The notes under the pieces: generated by a model
Told to the model about the DNA's origin: nothing
Database searches by the model: none
Seen by the model: only the letters and a program-made list of their open reading frames with translations
Origin: a virus
IMG/VR virus record: IMGVR_UViG_3300044996_000064
Span: 1-20,323 of that record
Direction: 5' to 3' (one strand)
Length of the DNA: 20,323 nt
Shown here: piece by piece, positions 6,809 through 17,621 of the stretch
Numbering within the stretch: position 1 is the stretch's first letter
How the letters are laid out: every line of letters begins with the position of its first letter
Position numbers and translations under genes: made by a program

Positions 6809-7825
6809 CTAGCTCGCGAAAGCGGCCCCCATCATCATAGAGCCGCCCGCCTGCATCAACTTGGACGACATATCGACGTAATCCTGTAAGCCAAGCTGCT
6901 TTTGCATCTTCGAGTGTGTCGTCGCCTGGGCAATACGGGCGTTCGTGTCGGCGCCATAGATCGCGCCTCGATCACCGCTGATCTGCCCAAGCGACAAGCC
7001 GGTTCGGCTGAAATTCGACGTGAACCCGCCGCTGCCGCCGCTCGTCAAAGCGACGCGATTCTGAAACGCCTGTTGGGACAGACGGTTCTGAAAGTCCGTG
7101 ATCGACGCCTGAAAACTTTGCTGCCCCTGAAGCTGCGCCTGGGTGAGTTGTTGAACGGCCAGCGGGTAGTTCAGTTCGGCTTGAGCTTGGGCGCCCCGAA
7201 TGTTGGTCGCAAGCTGTCCCTTTTGGCGGACGGACTCGCGGGCCACAAGCGACGCTCGGTCGAGCATCGGCGTGTCGGTCGGGCGCAAGCCAAGCTGCGG
7301 CGCCAAATCCTCGCGGATTTGCCTGATGGCCTCGGCCTCGCCGGCGTTGATGTCGGACTCGCCGGATGCAATCGCGGCATCGGCACTCTTTTTGATGAGC
7401 GCCTTTTGCTCGGCAGTCGCCGCCGTGCCTTGAATCTGGTCCTGATACTGCTTTTGAAGGACGGCTTTCTGTAGCGGGGCCAATTCCTTTTGCAGGGCGA
7501 TGGCGTCCTTTTGGGCCTTCATCGTTTCGAGGGACAGTTCTTTCGCGGCCTTGTTCTCGGCCGAGTCCGGGTCCATTTCGCGAATGAGCTTGTCGTAGTA
7601 GTCGCCTTGCAGCTTTGCGCTCGCTGCCTGCGCCTGAATCATGCCGGAATCGACAATCGACTGATATGACAACCGCTGAAGCTCATTCTGGCGCTTCAAT
7701 TCCTCAAGTTGCAATTTGCCAATCTCAAGAGACTGGCGTTGCATTTCGATTTCTTCCGCCGTCTTGGGCGGAATGGTCGTTGCTTGAACGGTGGTCGATC
7801 CGCCGCCGCCGAAAATGCCACCCAT
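6809..7825 (-). CDS. Internal virion protein candidate, Gln-rich helical
   Basis: A 338-residue protein starting MGGIFGGGGSTTVQ, a short Gly-rich start that I recall from internal proteins of many short-tailed phages, followed by a long Gln/Leu/Glu helical region (about residues 22-135, for example LQLEELKRQNELQRLSYQ) and a second Gln-rich helical block near 220-260. The C-terminus (SSKLMQAGGSMMMGAAFAS) is mildly hydrophobic. The start overlaps the GNAT stop by one base (TAATG) with GGAGGG 7 bases upstream, so the two are coupled. It is first in a run of three long helical proteins that together may form an ejectosome. No enzymatic motif is visible. Confidence 0.75.
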   Translation of the reverse strand: MGGIFGGGGSTTVQATTIPPKTAEEIEMQRQSLEIGKLQLEELKRQNELQRLSYQSIVDSGMIQAQAASAKLQGDYYDKLIREMDPDSAENKAAKELSLETMKAQKDAIALQKELAPLQKAVLQKQYQDQIQGTAATAEQKALIKKSADAAIASGESDINAGEAEAIRQIREDLAPQLGLRPTDTPMLDRASLVARESVRQKGQLATNIRGAQAQAELNYPLAVQQLTQAQLQGQQSFQASITDFQNRLSQQAFQNRVALTSGGSGGFTSNFSRTGLSLGQISGDRGAIYGADTNARIAQATTHSKMQKQLGLQDYVDMSSKLMQAGGSMMMGAAFAS

Positions 7826-8235
7826 TACGCAGCCCTCCTAACCATGATGGTACTCCACTCGCGGGCATCCCATCCGAGTTTGCCGAGCTTTTGGACGTTT
7901 TCATAGTGAGGCAACGTGACCAACGTCATCATGACCGACACGCCGCATGCCGTGGCAACCTCGACGGCGACGTTGTTGAGCGCGATAGCAGCCTCGGCCT
8001 TTCGACGCTTGGTCAGGCTTTTGAGACACGCGAATTGGTCGATCAGGCCGATTGGCTTGCCGATCAAGACCTGGATGCACCCGACAATCGTCCCGAATTT
8101 CTCAGCAACAAGCCAGTACGGCGCGGCGCCCTCGAAGCTCACTCCTTCAAGGACGCGAGCGCCCCCGTCAAGCAAGAGATCGCGAATGGCCGGCAGATCG
8201 GCCTCGGTCGCTGAACGGACTGTCGGAAGGGCCAT
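7825..8235 (-). CDS. GNAT family N-acetyltransferase
   Basis: A 136-residue protein with the layout of a small GNAT fold: an N-terminal VRSATEADLPAIRDLL (beta1-alpha1) segment, a central GTIVGCIQVLIG strand pair, a helix with AIALNNVAVEVATACGVS where acetyl-CoA would bind, and a C-terminal YENVQKLGKLGWDAREW, the aromatic/Gly-rich end typical of the family. GNAT enzymes transfer an acetyl group from acetyl-CoA to an amine; the substrate is unknown. The canonical Q/RxxGxG/A loop is degenerate, so activity is uncertain. It has a GAGGA Shine-Dalgarno before ATG 8235 and sits inside the late operon, overlapping the following internal-protein gene by one base. That placement suggests a role in late infection or virion protein modification, which is inference. 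Confidence 0.8.
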   Translation of the reverse strand: MALPTVRSATEADLPAIRDLLLDGGARVLEGVSFEGAAPYWLVAEKFGTIVGCIQVLIGKPIGLIDQFACLKSLTKRRKAEAAIALNNVAVEVATACGVSVMMTLVTLPHYENVQKLGKLGWDAREWSTIMVRRAA

Positions 8236-9462: not shown

Positions 9463-10761
9463 CTAATGACGTAGTCCACCGCTAAACCAGTAGTAACGGT
9501 CGCTTCCTACTCCGCCAGCGTTCACATTGATCGTCTTGGTGTTATTGTAGAACTGCGATTGCTGCACAGCAGTGTCGCCAGCGTCCATGTCGGCGTGAGA
9601 TACGCACCAGTTCAAGCCGAAATAGCCGGTATCCGACATCGTATATGCATGCAAAAGGCCGTGGCATCGATAACGCGCGTTCGATGTCCATATGCCGAGC
9701 CAATTCAATTTGTGATTAGCAACAAAGCCATTGAAACTTGGACTGCCTGAGAACTCATACACGCCAGTCACCGGGGCCGTGAATGTCCCAGTGGCATTGT
9801 TGAAGTTGTTACCAACGTCGATGGCTTCGCTATGAGCTTCCGTGTGATTGTAAGTGGTGCCGTCGCCCGTGACGTTTGAGGCGCCAGCCGAAGCAGAAAT
9901 GAAGTATGGCTGCTTCGGCATTGTGACGCAACCATTCGGGTCAATGTCGATGGCTTTCGCGCCGGCAGTCACGATGCCGATGTTGTTTGTGCCGACAACG
10001 TAAATGCCACAATCAGGGTCGCCATTGAACGACAGACCGGGATTGCTAAGAGACCCGCTCGAAGCGAGAATCATGGAGCCGTTGGAATATCCGCTGCTAA
10101 TTCCAATAACGGTCGCACTCGAAACATCGAGAGTCCCGCGCACAAGAAGCTGAGCGCCCGTCGCGAAGCTCTCGATGAACCCGCTCGCATGAGTCTCGAT
10201 GCCGTTATTGACAAAGGTCGCGCCCGAATTGATTTGGAACGTCGCGCCCGAGGCAAAAATCTCCGTCGCGCCAGAACCATGCGTCTCGGAGCCGTTGTTA
10301 GTGACGGTCGCAGCCGAGTTGATGGTGATGGCCGCTCCCGAGGCAAAGACTTCGGTGCTGCCAGAACCATGCGTTTCGGCGCCGTTGTTGGTGACAGTTG
10401 CGGCTGAATTGATGGTGATGGCCGCGCCCGAAGCAAAGACTTCGGTGCTGCCGGAGCCATGCGTTTCGGCCGCATTGTTGGTGATCGTCGAGCCTGTCCC
10501 GAATGTTTCGGAAAACCCCGATCCATGCGTCTCCGTGCCGTGATTGACAAGCGTGGAACCGGACGGGATGGTCAGGGTCTTGCCCGTTACCATCGTGAAA
10601 CTGCCGGCGCTCGACGCATCGTAGCCGCCGAAAGACACATTCGCCGTCAACGGGAAGGCAACCGACGTGCCATTGCCGGTGATTTGCGTGAAGGATGCGT
10701 TGAGATCGGCGGCCGTCAGGACTTCGCCGGCAATCCAGGTTTTATAGACCGAAATGGCCAT
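9463..10761 (-). CDS. Tail fibre with 30-residue repeats and C1q-like tip
   Basis: A 432-residue fibre, probably trimeric and host-binding. Residues 1-30 (YKTWIAGEVLTAADLNASF) resemble N-terminal virion-attachment segments of phage fibres. Residues 61-202 form five repeats (30, 22, 30, 30, 30 residues), each with an ETH-G/A-SG motif. Residues about 238-285 contain SFNGDPDCGIY, a motif common in phage fibres (usually GDTDTGIY). Residues about 286-432 look like a C1q/TNF-type jelly roll, with GTFTAPVTGVYEFS and a closing DRYYWFSGGL. Start ATG 10761 overlaps the nozzle stop by one base (TAATG), with GGAG 8 bases upstream. Being next to the nozzle gene supports a tail-fibre role. The repeats have a DNA counterpart listed separately. 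Confidence 0.88.
   Translation of the reverse strand: MAISVYKTWIAGEVLTAADLNASFTQITGNGTSVAFPLTANVSFGGYDASSAGSFTMVTGKTLTIPSGSTLVNHGTETHGSGFSETFGTGSTITNNAAETHGSGSTEVFASGAAITINSAATVTNNGAETHGSGSTEVFASGAAITINSAATVTNNGSETHGSGATEIFASGATFQINSGATFVNNGIETHASGFIESFATGAQLLVRGTLDVSSATVIGISSGYSNGSMILASSGSLSNPGLSFNGDPDCGIYVVGTNNIGIVTAGAKAIDIDPNGCVTMPKQPYFISASAGASNVTGDGTTYNHTEAHSEAIDVGNNFNNATGTFTAPVTGVYEFSGSPSFNGFVANHKLNWLGIWTSNARYRCHGLLHAYTMSDTGYFGLNWCVSHADMDAGDTAVQQSQFYNNTKTINVNAGGVGSDRYYWFSGGLRH
10156..10581. repeat. 90-bp tandem repeats inside the tail-fibre gene
   Basis: Tandem units run at an exact 90-bp period: the anchor word CCAGAACCAT (plus strand) or its close variants falls at 10181, 10271, 10361 and 10451, then 66 bp later at 10517. 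The shorter unit lacks 24 bp (8 codons). The two units at 10246-10335 and 10336-10425 encode 30-residue segments that differ at only three residues. The frame is kept throughout, so copy number can change without breaking the fibre, a plausible route to fibre-length variation. Confidence 0.9.
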
Positions 10762-12347
10762 TAGGGATTCTCCGACGAAACAGCGCCCGGAATCACCATA
10801 GCAGATATAGTGTGAATTTCTATATCTTCGCTAGGCGTTGAGTGCGTGAGGGCGAATTGAACGGCCCGGAATTCGCCGCCGGTCTCGATGTCCTTGAACA
10901 CGTCCACGTAGCGGTTGCCGGCCAAGACCGACGTTCCCAGGGTAAAATTGCCGCTTGAGATCGTGCCGAGCGCGTCGCCGCCCTGGCCGGTGATGGTTTC
11001 GGTCTGCGCCTGATTGCTATCCCTCGTCCATCGGAACGTGGTGTCGCCGCCATTGCGCGGGAAAAATCCCACTGCGACAAAACTCAAGGTCTTCTTGATG
11101 TGCGGCGACCCGTAGGTCAGGAAGGGCAACTGAACATTCGTGGTGATCCCGGTCGTTGAATCGATTGCGCGCTCCAACTGATTGAGCTTGCGCAGATAGC
11201 CGTCGTAGCAACCGGCAATCGGGACGGCGTGGTTGTTGTTGCCGGCGTCCACCAACATGCCGAGGCTGCAAACCGCAATGGCGTCCCAATAAGACCACCG
11301 CACCGGATTGAATCTGAAGTCCATGAGCAAGATCAGATTGTTGGTCGCACTCGATCCAATCGGCAGCGTAATGTACGTGACCCCGTAGGCGCTGATGGTC
11401 TTTGCCCAAGCCTTCTTGATTTGGGACAGATTCACGTTGTCGCGCAGATAGCCGTCAATCGGCGCCGACAACGATGCCGCGTTAAAGTCGCCGTAGTTGG
11501 CCGTCGCCGCGAGAGACCGAATTGAGCCATCGTGGGCAACGAACCCGAGATCGTCGCCGAACCGGAAGATGCCGTTGTGGCAAGCCGCGCCAAGCCCGTC
11601 GATGAAGGTCTTGCGCGCGAAATCCGACGACGTGGACCCGCTGATTTGGTGGATGCTGCCCTTGTAAGGCCCCTTGAACACGAACAAGAAATCCTTGTGC
11701 GAGGCGATTCCAGTGATGCGGTCGCCGTCGTTCGGGTCAATGTCGATGCTGCCGGAGCCGCCGCCGGTCCAATCGTTCGGGTCAAGCTGCACCGAATAAT
11801 AGAGCCGCGACGGCTGCGACGGGACGCCTGCCGCCCATGCGCGATTTTTGTGGGTCACACCGAAAGAGAACGTCGGCGGCGAACCGCTCAGATTGCCGGC
11901 GGTCGTTTGATCGTACTTTTTGGGTACGTCCGTGCCGCTGTCGTTCGCCATGATGAGGTAATCTTCGAAGACGAAGCAGCACGGCGTCGCGCCGCTGGTC
12001 ATGCCGGTGAGAATGTCGGCAAACACGCCGTCGGCATTGTCGGCCTTGATCTTGGTGCCGACGTGAACGATGCGCTTTTGGGTTGCCGTGCCCGACGTGC
12101 CGATTTTCCAGAAATCGAAACAGGACGTGATCGGGGCGCCGGACTCCAGGGCCGACGAATTGATTTTCGTCGTGCCGCCCATCTTGCGCGGCCCGCCATC
12201 AAGCTCGTATTGGATGTTCTTGGCGTCCGTCAGAAACGGGATGACAAGCTGCCCGGCGCCGTCAGGCGCGGCATCGTACATAGGCCCAAGGTCGGTTGCC
12301 CACCCGCCGCCGAAAAGGTGCCTCACGAATACGTCGGACGAGGGCAT
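10761..12347 (-). CDS. Tail nozzle / beta-propeller-like neck protein
   Basis: A 528-residue protein resembling the nozzle proteins of SU10-type podoviruses and P22 gp10-like tail hub proteins. The N-terminal PFLTDAKNIQYELDGGPRKM segment, the middle SRLYYSVQLDPNDW followed by SIDIDPNDGDRITGI, and the SHKDFLFVFKGPYKGSIHQI strand are hallmarks of these propeller-like proteins, which close the tail channel below the adaptor. The C-terminal third is beta-rich (for example TTFRWTRDSNQAQ). Start ATG 12347 follows the adaptor stop by 6 bases with GGAG 9 bases upstream; the stop overlaps the fibre start. The order adaptor-nozzle-fibre strongly supports the call. Confidence 0.83.
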   Translation of the reverse strand: MPSSDVFVRHLFGGGWATDLGPMYDAAPDGAGQLVIPFLTDAKNIQYELDGGPRKMGGTTKINSSALESGAPITSCFDFWKIGTSGTATQKRIVHVGTKIKADNADGVFADILTGMTSGATPCCFVFEDYLIMANDSGTDVPKKYDQTTAGNLSGSPPTFSFGVTHKNRAWAAGVPSQPSRLYYSVQLDPNDWTGGGSGSIDIDPNDGDRITGIASHKDFLFVFKGPYKGSIHQISGSTSSDFARKTFIDGLGAACHNGIFRFGDDLGFVAHDGSIRSLAATANYGDFNAASLSAPIDGYLRDNVNLSQIKKAWAKTISAYGVTYITLPIGSSATNNLILLMDFRFNPVRWSYWDAIAVCSLGMLVDAGNNNHAVPIAGCYDGYLRKLNQLERAIDSTTGITTNVQLPFLTYGSPHIKKTLSFVAVGFFPRNGGDTTFRWTRDSNQAQTETITGQGGDALGTISSGNFTLGTSVLAGNRYVDVFKDIETGGEFRAVQFALTHSTPSEDIEIHTISAMVIPGAVSSENP

Positions 12348-12353
12348 TGCTCA

Positions 12354-13373
12354 CTACTCCATCCGATCAAACTTGCCGTTGAGATCGTAACGGCGGCTGA
12401 CGCCCGAGCGCCACGGAGACTGAGCGGCGCGCGCGTAGCCGCTGCGGCGCGGCTGAATGCGCGGCCTTGGGGCGCCGATTTCCTGATCGACGGCCATTCG
12501 GGACATGAAATCGACGTACTCGGTTTTCACATCTTGGGAGCGCGTGTCGTCCTTTTTGTCCCGATACCAGTTGTAGAGCGCATGCAGGACGATGGCGAAG
12601 CGATAGCGCAGATAGACAATCGGCTCGTCGCTGTCGCTCGAAAGCGCGGCCGAAGCCGCGCCGGCGCTGGTCACAACAAGATTGCTGGTGATGTAGCTGT
12701 ACGGAATGGCATAGGCCGAGTCCGGGTAGCTGCTGAATTTGATCTTGCGAACCGGCGTCGTGTTGCCGCTGAAAGGCAAATCAATGATGGTCGCGACGCG
12801 CGGCCGTCCCGAAATGTCGTTGTTCGGGAACCGACGGCGAAATTCCGTCCGGCCCACCAAAGACACAGACGCATTGTCATCGAAATTCGACACCGAAACG
12901 GGACGCTTGAAATCCGAGGCGAGCGCGTATTCGTCCTCGAAATAGACATAGGTCCCGCCGCTCACGTCGCTGCCGACGTAGCTGCTTGCCAGGGTCGCCG
13001 ACGTGTCTGATGCCACGCTGGAAATCTCATAGATCGGCGACGTGCCGTTGATCTTGATTTTCCCGCCCGCGCGCATGTTCGCGACGCTGAAGGCGTTGTT
13101 GGTGTTCCATGCCGTGCTGCTTCCGGTCAGCGCCGTGCCACCCTTCGAAACCGAAAGCGTTCCGGTCGAATACGGCGCTTGCGTGACAAGCACGGCCCGG
13201 CGTTCGGCCCAGGGGACTTTTTCGTCGAAACCGATGTGCATGTCCTGAAGCGCGATGTTGATGTAGCGCTTCGCTTGGACGATGGTCGCGGTTCCGCCGG
13301 TGTCCGCCCTGATGCGGTTCATCAAGTCGGTGTAGAGATCGGAGAAGGTGGTAGGCGTCGTCGTTGACGACAT
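12354..13373 (-). CDS. Head-tail adaptor protein (SU10 adaptor-like)
   Basis: A 339-residue protein whose start TFSDLYTDLMNRIRADTG, followed by a helix AKRYINIALQDMHIGFD and beta segments (STGTLSVSKGGTALTG), matches the adaptor family that attaches under the portal dodecamer in short-tailed phages. The middle contains an inserted beta domain (residues about 70-150) and the C-terminal part has a helix LRYRFAIVLHALYNWYRDKK typical of the adaptor core, then a basic Arg-rich tail. Start ATG 13373 has AAGGGGG 8 bases upstream. It lies directly before the nozzle gene, as in related genomes. Confidence comes from pattern plus order. Confidence 0.85.
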   Translation of the reverse strand: MSSTTTPTTFSDLYTDLMNRIRADTGGTATIVQAKRYINIALQDMHIGFDEKVPWAERRAVLVTQAPYSTGTLSVSKGGTALTGSSTAWNTNNAFSVANMRAGGKIKINGTSPIYEISSVASDTSATLASSYVGSDVSGGTYVYFEDEYALASDFKRPVSVSNFDDNASVSLVGRTEFRRRFPNNDISGRPRVATIIDLPFSGNTTPVRKIKFSSYPDSAYAIPYSYITSNLVVTSAGAASAALSSDSDEPIVYLRYRFAIVLHALYNWYRDKKDDTRSQDVKTEYVDFMSRMAVDQEIGAPRPRIQPRRSGYARAAQSPWRSGVSRRYDLNGKFDRME

Positions 13374-15954: not shown

Positions 15955-16878
15955 CTACGAGACTTGGGCGCCGAGAATCCAGCGCCAGTTGATCCACGCC
16001 TGCGAATAGCGCATGTACGCGCGCCATTTCGCGACCAGCGTGTCGAAGTCCTCGATGTAGGCGAATTCGAGCGGCACCCGGTCCACCCACAGCAAGAACT
16101 CCTTCATCAGGGTCTTGTCGAGCATGAACCAGTTGTTCGTGTCGGTGAGATACCGATTTTCCATCAGATCGTACTGGCCCTGATGGACGTTCTTGTTGTT
16201 GTTGCCGGTGTCGGGCTTGCCCATGCTCTCGACGATCTCGAACGCCTCGCCGTAGAGATTCGGCGGATAGAGCAGGCAGTCGGGATTGCTGTCGAAGATG
16301 TTGCCCCGGTCATCGACGTACCCGACCATCTGAATGCGCGCCGCCGCAACGGCCGTGGCCGTCAGCGATGACGTAATCAGATTGTCGAAGCCGGATGCCG
16401 TCGAGACGCCGGACGCCGTGGTCGTGTGGCTGTTCGAGCAGAGCGCCACGCCTTCGCTGTTGTTCCCGAAATAGGTGTCGTTGCTGAAGGCGTTGTTGAA
16501 CGGCCGGAGCGCGTGTTTGTTGCGCGAGCGAACGGCGGCTCGGGCGAGCCCCGTCGGCTTGGCGTCCATGACGTGATACTGATCGTCGTCGAACAGCTTG
16601 CGCTCGACTTGGAAGCCGCTGGTGAATTCGACGTGGGTTGCGGTCGTGTCGTAGCCCTGCGCCACCGAGTCGTAATTCACGGTGCCGGTGAAGGCGACGA
16701 AATCGCCGAACGCGCCGATGCCGGACCAGCGCATATCCGCGCGGCCGTTGTCGGGCGGCATGCCGAAGAACAGGGGAACCTGATCCGGCAACTGCTTCAG
16801 CGAGTCGTTCCAGATTTTCTGGAAACGCGGGTCGATCAGATCGCCGAAGCCGGTCGAAATGGCGGGGGTTGCGGGCAT
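15955..16878 (-). CDS. Major capsid protein (Mu gpT-like, HK97 fold)
   Basis: A 307-residue protein that should build the icosahedral head. The N-terminus (IDPRFQKIWNDSLKQLPD), a central VEFTSGFQVERKLFDDDQY strand-helix, the NNAFSNDTYFGNNSEGVALC segment with the following SHTTT, the PDCLLYPPNLYGEAFEIVES region, and the C-terminal KWRAYMRYSQAWINWRWILG are characteristic of gpT-like capsid proteins of short-tailed and other phages. ATG 16878 has a very strong AAGGAGG 9 bases upstream, as expected for the most abundant virion protein. It follows an unknown head protein and precedes a gap of about 170 bp. The stop is TAG. Confidence 0.88.
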   Translation of the reverse strand: MPATPAISTGFGDLIDPRFQKIWNDSLKQLPDQVPLFFGMPPDNGRADMRWSGIGAFGDFVAFTGTVNYDSVAQGYDTTATHVEFTSGFQVERKLFDDDQYHVMDAKPTGLARAAVRSRNKHALRPFNNAFSNDTYFGNNSEGVALCSNSHTTTASGVSTASGFDNLITSSLTATAVAAARIQMVGYVDDRGNIFDSNPDCLLYPPNLYGEAFEIVESMGKPDTGNNNKNVHQGQYDLMENRYLTDTNNWFMLDKTLMKEFLLWVDRVPLEFAYIEDFDTLVAKWRAYMRYSQAWINWRWILGAQVS

Positions 16879-16913
16879 GACTCAAGTCCTCCTTGAAAGG
16901 CCGGGGCCGGCGG

Positions 16914-17621
16914 TTAGGTCAACTGACCGGCGAACACGCTGTCGCTCGCCTGAATGAAGGCGAAGCTGTTATAGCGACCGTTCGCCGAAGCGTCCGCCGC
17001 CTGAAGCTCGATGACGCGCCACGTCCCGCCGGAACCGACCGCCGACGAACAGTCGATCTCGGTGACGTTCGTGGAGAGCAGGACCAACGTCGATTGGCCG
17101 GGCGTGAAGGGCGCGCGCAGGAAGTTGTCGCCGACAACGGTGTCATACGGGAAGGCGACGGTGACAGTCGCGTCCGAGGTCGAAACCGACGTGATCTTGC
17201 GCATGATGCCGGCATTGGCGCCGTCATAGCCCCAAATCGTGCCTTCGTCCTGCGTGACCGTGGACCAGTCGTCGCCGGTCTGGACGACGAGCCCGGACGT
17301 GCTGGCGACAGTCACGTCGTAGAGCGTGAGGGCCGTGCCTTCGGTCGCGTTGCCCGAGAGACGGGCCTTGTAAACCGAGTCGGGCCGGATGTTGAGCGTG
17401 AGCAGGGCAGCCGGGTCGGCCGAGCCCTGCGCCGTCGCGTAGGTCGCGGTGTCGAGATTGACGCCCATGAAATCGGTCGCGCTCGAAACCGTGCAGAGCG
17501 GGACGCCGGCGCCGTTGGCGGCCGGGATCATGAACGGCTGGCCGACACGCGAGATCGTCGCATTGGTCTGGTACTTCTTGAGTACCGGGGCGCCGCCGAA
17601 GAGGTTGTATGCGCAGTCCAT
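16914..17621 (-). CDS. Head-associated protein, unknown (possible decoration protein)
   Basis: A 235-residue protein, beta-rich with Thr/Ser/Ala-rich strands (for example SSATDFMGVNLDTATYATA and GTALTLYDVTVASTSGLVV). No membrane helix or signal peptide is seen. It lies directly before the major capsid gene, a position often held by head decoration or capsid-stabilising proteins; that is the basis of the guess. ATG 17621 has GAAGGAG 8 bases upstream. Confidence 0.75.
   Translation of the reverse strand: MDCAYNLFGGAPVLKKYQTNATISRVGQPFMIPAANGAGVPLCTVSSATDFMGVNLDTATYATAQGSADPAALLTLNIRPDSVYKARLSGNATEGTALTLYDVTVASTSGLVVQTGDDWSTVTQDEGTIWGYDGANAGIMRKITSVSTSDATVTVAFPYDTVVGDNFLRAPFTPGQSTLVLLSTNVTEIDCSSAVGSGGTWRVIELQAADASANGRYNSFAFIQASDSVFAGQLT

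Follow-up and report, generated by a model that had tools for sequence, protein, structure and literature searches.

A histidine-bearing shaft of short period, probably of beta structure, joined to a C1q-like tip in a modular phage fibre

A minus-strand gene in a virus record encodes a protein in which one histidine recurs in the same local motif, which raises the question of what kind of protein this is and what the histidines do in it. The stretch analysed, here called the window, is the complete virus record of 20,323 bases. The original prediction had taken 10156-10581 (residues 61 to 202) for the repetitive shaft of a fibre, and a fibre is what the analysis supports: the protein is a modular fibre composed of a conserved N-terminal module, a shaft that was not found elsewhere, and a C1q-like tip. 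The gene, its parts, and its neighbour are as follows.

10761-12347, minus strand: putative gp10-like neighbour gene (head closure / DNA stabilization)
9463-10761, minus strand: fibre gene, an open reading frame of 432 amino acids plus stop
10618-10761, minus strand: N-terminal module, residues 1 to 48, probable tail docking (tblastn and gene position in 18 related loci)
10135-10581, minus strand: shaft, residues 61 to 209, 20 contiguous segments of 7 to 8 residues (segment split and strands of a weak model)
9937-10134, minus strand: linker, residues 210 to 275 (pLDDT below 50 from residue 215; no separate match found)
9466-9936, minus strand: C1q-like tip, residues 276 to 432 (phrog_15750, E = 2.8e-9; five-tip profile matching C1QL2)

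The fibre gene is part of a minus-strand structural module that holds a portal end (SU10_portal match, barely over the cut-off), a capsid gene (Phage_capsid_4, E = 5.7e-10), a gene at 12354-13373 that we call adaptor-like from its position, the gp10-like gene, the fibre gene, and later a phage lysozyme gene. The fibre gene and the gp10-like gene overlap by one base pair, the first of the fibre gene being the last of its neighbour. A role of 10761-12347 in head closure or DNA stabilization is suggested by distant relatives annotated as phage stabilization protein (24 to 32% identity); in PHROGs, the best match was phrog_5107, named amidase (E = 4e-18), and head closure Hc3 was matched with just E = 0.012. 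In P22, the needle gene likewise follows gp10. Approximately residues 66 to 149 of the adaptor-like protein (minus strand) matched, in PHROGs, the very N termini of several families of tail fibres.

Relatives of this arrangement were collected through the capsid, which retrieved 46 viral loci (52 to 71% identity). A gp10-like gene is present in 27 of them, 5 of which end within it, leaving 22 testable loci. The gp10-like gene is followed by a gene starting with the N-terminal module in 18/22 loci, at a distance from the end of the match of within 50 bases in 15 and of 281 to 727 bases in 3 (L121, L128, and L130), and best tblastn matches to the module had 33 to 67% identity over 21 to 153 residues counted from residue 1. 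Judged by this conservation and by gene position, the first ~48 residues would dock the fibre to the tail. The module was not found after the gp10-like gene in the other four testable loci (L091, L094, L095, and L125). Open reading frames directly after the gp10-like gene in L091 (~6849-7838) and L125 (~16617-17606) are non-fibre genes, which we take to resemble dioxygenase and cupin. Six of the 18 genes with the module run off their contig, 4 of them showing just 21 to 118 residues, so that 14 could be judged for the shaft. Since all 18 show the module and none shows ETH in its visible sequence, the docking end, at the level of sequence, is constant while shaft and tip vary among relatives, which would make this one phage group in which the docking end of the fibre is fixed and everything behind it is exchanged. 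The motif TWxxGEVLTAxDLN of the module was also met in 29 stretches of viral contigs by pattern search. Amid the virion genes of the window, a small open reading frame (7825-8235, minus strand) had a tblastn match in 9 of the 46 capsid-related loci and no Pfam match at E = 0.01; it presumably resembles a GNAT acetyltransferase. An N-acetyltransferase is annotated directly after the stabilization protein in Microcystis phage Mae-Yong1326-1.

The distal end was placed by profile comparison. Residues 281 to 399 matched phrog_15750, and the window protein matched Pfam C1q over a short stretch with 19.8 bits, under the cut-off of 23.7. Tip-like matches occurred at 4 loci among 397 genomes of one arbitrarily chosen order, and the relative L116 had 34% identity to the tip (E = 4e-10). 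L161, from a bacterial genome, passed the Pfam C1q cut-off (31.7 versus 23.7 bits), and L116, L162, and L164 stayed under it. A profile of five tips (A3, from which L163 was left out, having no local tblastn match) matched PDB entries of C1QL2 (E = 3.9e-4 over profile positions 47 to 165 of 166) and single chains of cerebellin-1 (E = 2e-4 over positions 26 to 77); the best single-domain matches of A3 thus range from E = 2e-4 to 4e-4, the row with E = 5e-14 being a three-copy construct. AlphaFold2 modelling of the tip with one relative gave a mean pLDDT of 40.0. As judged by these profiles, the tip belongs to the C1q/TNF-like kind. C1q domains form trimers, and because the tip is C1q-like, the fibre is probably trimeric, which upholds the predicted trimer as a deduction from the family of the tip.

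The five histidines were indeed found at residues 79, 101, 131, 161, and 191 in a repeated motif (ETHGSG four times and ETHASG once), as originally predicted. ETH[GA]SG occurred five times in the protein versus at most once in any of 20,000 protein shuffles, 3 of which had one. Steps between the five are 22, 30, 30, and 30 residues, and the units that contain them are listed below.

10468-10533, minus strand: unit 1, residues 77 to 98, 22 residues in three segments, His79
10378-10467, minus strand: unit 2, residues 99 to 128, four segments, His101
10288-10377, minus strand: unit 3, residues 129 to 158, four segments, His131 (79/90 bases as in unit 2)
10198-10287, minus strand: unit 4, residues 159 to 188, four segments, His161
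10108-10197, minus strand: unit 5, residues 189 to 218, His191 (repeat kept in the first half only)

The five units agree at eight positions without exception (E, T, H, S, and G, then E, F, and G), the repeat being followed in unit 5 just to residue 202. The 22-residue unit is, as had been predicted, a shorter step, without one 8-residue segment, but it is the first unit and not the second. A sixth shaft histidine (residue 74) occupies the Asn position of other NNG segments, and the tip has one additional E-x-H (residues 308 to 310).

The 90-bp DNA units had been described as near-identical, and hence as allowing gain or loss of repeats in frame. Near-identity applies to units 2 and 3 only (longest exact run, 20 bases); the remaining nine unit pairs share 37 to 64 of 90 bases, with unit 1 compared ungapped, which lowers its four pair scores. 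Units 2 and 3 are separated by 10 synonymous changes and 1 coding change (pS = 0.42, pN = 0.02; P = 1.5e-5, in a test that compares dependent repeats within one gene), and the duplication would therefore be old and the protein kept by selection. The synonymous excess fades with distance, and pairs with unit 5 fell short of P = 0.03 (P = 0.034, 0.076, and 0.083). The case for gain or loss is weakened, as silent differences have accumulated at 10 codons even between the two most similar units. We give next to no credence to the array being a recent slippage product without function: the 90-bp repeats do lie head to tail, but silent differences are many and the protein has been kept, as the pS and pN values of the closest pair indicate.

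A split of our own partitions residues 61 to 209, without gaps, into 20 segments that are each 7 or 8 residues long (in order 8, 7, 7, 8, 7, 7, 8, 8, 7, 7, 8, 8, 7, 7, 8, 8, 7, 7, 8, and 7) and have a terminal Gly or Ala. Self-identity by shift peaked at 8, 22, 30, and 38 residues (0.29, 0.34, 0.58, and 0.22, respectively), and the period is therefore ~7.5 residues. With such segments as the basic unit, both the 30-residue unit (two 8s and two 7s) and the 22-residue unit (one 8 and two 7s) are explained. The segments are of four kinds, two with 8 residues (xxExFxSG and xxIxINSG-like) and two with 7 (xT-hydrophobic-x-NNG and xETHGSG); the shaft would be put together from these four kinds, and the histidine recurs because one of them recurs. 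All 10 shaft Glu and five of the six shaft His fall in paired ETHGSG-xxExF segments, and the charge of the shaft otherwise consists of one Lys and one Arg, with no Asp.

AlphaFold2 run on the single sequence gave a mean pLDDT of 42.8 (54 to 70 in shaft blocks and 22 to 34 in tip blocks from residue 281 on), and this monomer, modelled without an alignment, has strands every 7 to 8 residues in the shaft. Together with the period peaks, these strands of a weak model support the repeating beta shaft that had been proposed. It is rather unlikely that each chain forms its own right-handed beta-helix of the tailspike type, with three of them side by side, so that the histidines never meet on an axis. 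Three segments of 7.5 residues would make a coil of ~22 residues, and the solved structures that come nearest to the model are beta-helices formed by one chain rather than trimers with intertwined chains. These include the adhesin 5nxk (Z = 11.3, rmsd 3.9, 226 residues) and the CBA120 tailspike 5w6h (Z = 10.7), from a listing in which the lack of a family does not exclude it, as well as TibA (best PDB match in Foldseek, E = 0.056) and a phage neck appendage protein (best in the Foldseek viral library, E = 1.3e-3, TM-score 0.22). However, neither Foldseek library yielded a match with E ≤ 0.001, the neighbours are those of a low-confidence monomer, and a four-segment unit would shift the repeats to other faces of a three-sided coil, which would be unusual.

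The direction in which the histidines point depends on how the segments are aligned, and two registers give opposite answers. When the 20 segments were aligned on the last Gly, the other 15 residues of the histidine column were all V, I, L, F, or T, which puts the histidine inside, and ETHGSG matched EVFASG position by position. When the motif segments were aligned with the other 7-residue segments by their start, the histidine fell beside the hydrophobic column with the Glu on the same side, that is, outside. A plain assignment of the histidines to the core column was dropped, as it depends on the former alignment and is reversed by the latter. The start-aligned register, in which E and H flank an inner T on the same outer face, suits an outer patch, in which His and Glu would form a repeated surface that touches host polymer or cations; these clusters account for almost all of the charge in the shaft. 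The end-aligned register contradicts such a patch, and we consider it improbable.

The end-aligned register would instead suit a metal ring, in which three His, plus three Glu from E-x-H, meet on the trimer axis in each repeat as a one-His-per-chain cousin of HxH. The hydrophobic column and the parallel with EVFASG, the invariance of E, T, H, S, and G in five of five units, and the gathering of Glu and His in paired segments of a shaft with so little other charge all favour a ring, as does the buried Glu with a hydrated Mg ion described for T4 gp5 (PMC4576200). Against it stand the absence of HxH from all 432 residues of the window fibre, the start-aligned register, and look-alikes at the motif level that have Gly in place of His, and a ring seems quite improbable to us. 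The look-alikes were 10 of 25 pattern-found viral stretches, which carry the segment style SG[AS]TLxxNSGATIxNNGTA; none has His at the position in question, and NNG is followed by TATGF in nine and TASGF in one, with Gly where His stands here. These 10 viral contig proteins (L133, L134, L135, L141, L143, L146, L148, L155, L156, and L157) share the style SG-ATLNINSG-ATIANNG with the window fibre but lack ETHGSG and have only approximately three consecutive segments, and they are look-alikes whose homology is not proven.

As the protein has no HxH, the likeness to the iron site of T4 gp37 put forward in the original prediction fails. The iron sites of phage fibres, as described in the accounts cited, consist of six His from three HxH (PMC6116203, PMC6957217). 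T4 gp37 and R-pyocin fibres resemble the window fibre, itself probably trimeric, in being slender and in having His at intervals; the HxH of those fibres contrasts with one His per repeat here (PMC6957217, PMC6116203), so that a layer would hold at most three His and not six. The fibre of Alteromonas phage R22Y likewise has several His sites in a row, for which metal is proposed, but these are six predicted HxH sites in a predicted trimer (PMC11705849), whereas the window fibre has single His in 7- to 8-residue segments. The triple-stranded beta-helix of T4 gp5 shares short regular segments with the shaft, which may likewise be an intertwined trimer, but is built on a VxGxxxxx motif in the text cited (PMC4576200); octads of this type do not make up the shaft, which has one V-x-G in 149 residues. 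The Sf6/HS1 tail needle with its TNF-like knob combines, as in the window fibre, a TNF/C1q-type trimeric tip with a thin stalk, and in the description cited the shaft of P22-type needles is helical (PMC3741392), unlike the beta segments predicted here. A Glu/His cation site in each repeat, with one His per chain per layer and perhaps Glu, is conceivable. We consider it highly doubtful that five such sites form a ladder along the shaft, in which E-x-H and the next E-x-F would gather as many as six Glu, together with three His, per trimer into a non-HxH metal site that keeps the three chains in register. If Glu/His pairs did bind metal, they would be a second kind of metal site in phage fibres beside HxH.

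The explanation that we prefer, and consider reasonably likely, is that the protein serves a phage, probably a short-tailed one, as a trimeric fibre for receptor binding, with a docking end, a beta shaft, a C1q-like tip, and histidines that are structural. The shaft of 20 short beta segments would set the tip, C1q-like by profile and presumably trimeric, apart from the particle, and the histidines, instead of binding metal, would most likely serve in packing or in contacts of Glu with His from strand to strand. The protein adds to the known modular fibres of phages a case in which a short-period beta shaft is combined with a C1q-like tip, and its shaft is one of short period whose unit is three or four segments.

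A tblastn search of 50,697 phage records gave no relative of the whole fibre, although the sets searched may omit records very near the window and a close cousin could exist, and no relative was confirmed from seed patterns in either viral_contigs (8 stretches) or genome_contigs (34 stretches). The shaft alone had one match in phages (E = 5, spanning small hypothetical genes in a Klebsiella phage) and one in plasmids (E = 0.1); the tip alone had none in phages at E = 0.1, and the N terminus alone matched 12 phage records, all with E = 0.4 or worse. Pattern searches with NNGxETHG in viral_contigs (6 stretches, 4 in open frame) and with NN[GA]xETH[GA][ST]G in genome_contigs (3 stretches, 1 in open frame) retrieved no fibre, and a longer repeat pattern had 0 matches. 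Two ETH[GA] 90 bases apart were found in 44 stretches of viral_contigs, none of them a relative of the shaft; the 15 in open frame were rejected, being simple repeats, Arg-rich readings, or one protein (L043, L074) without such a repeat. A PDB sequence search with the shaft had a lectin as its best match (E = 0.0096), which was set aside as weak and repetitive, and NCBIfam TIGR03000 was rejected (17.7 versus a cut-off of 43.1). Among the 18 fibres with the N-terminal module, HxH occurs in two, once in L123:9908-11335 and three times in L130:16891-18258, where it lies behind a weak collar match (18.8 versus a cut-off of 24). The fibre at L124:16724-18925 has a repeat of ~90 residues with one His each (residues 133, 223, and 313).
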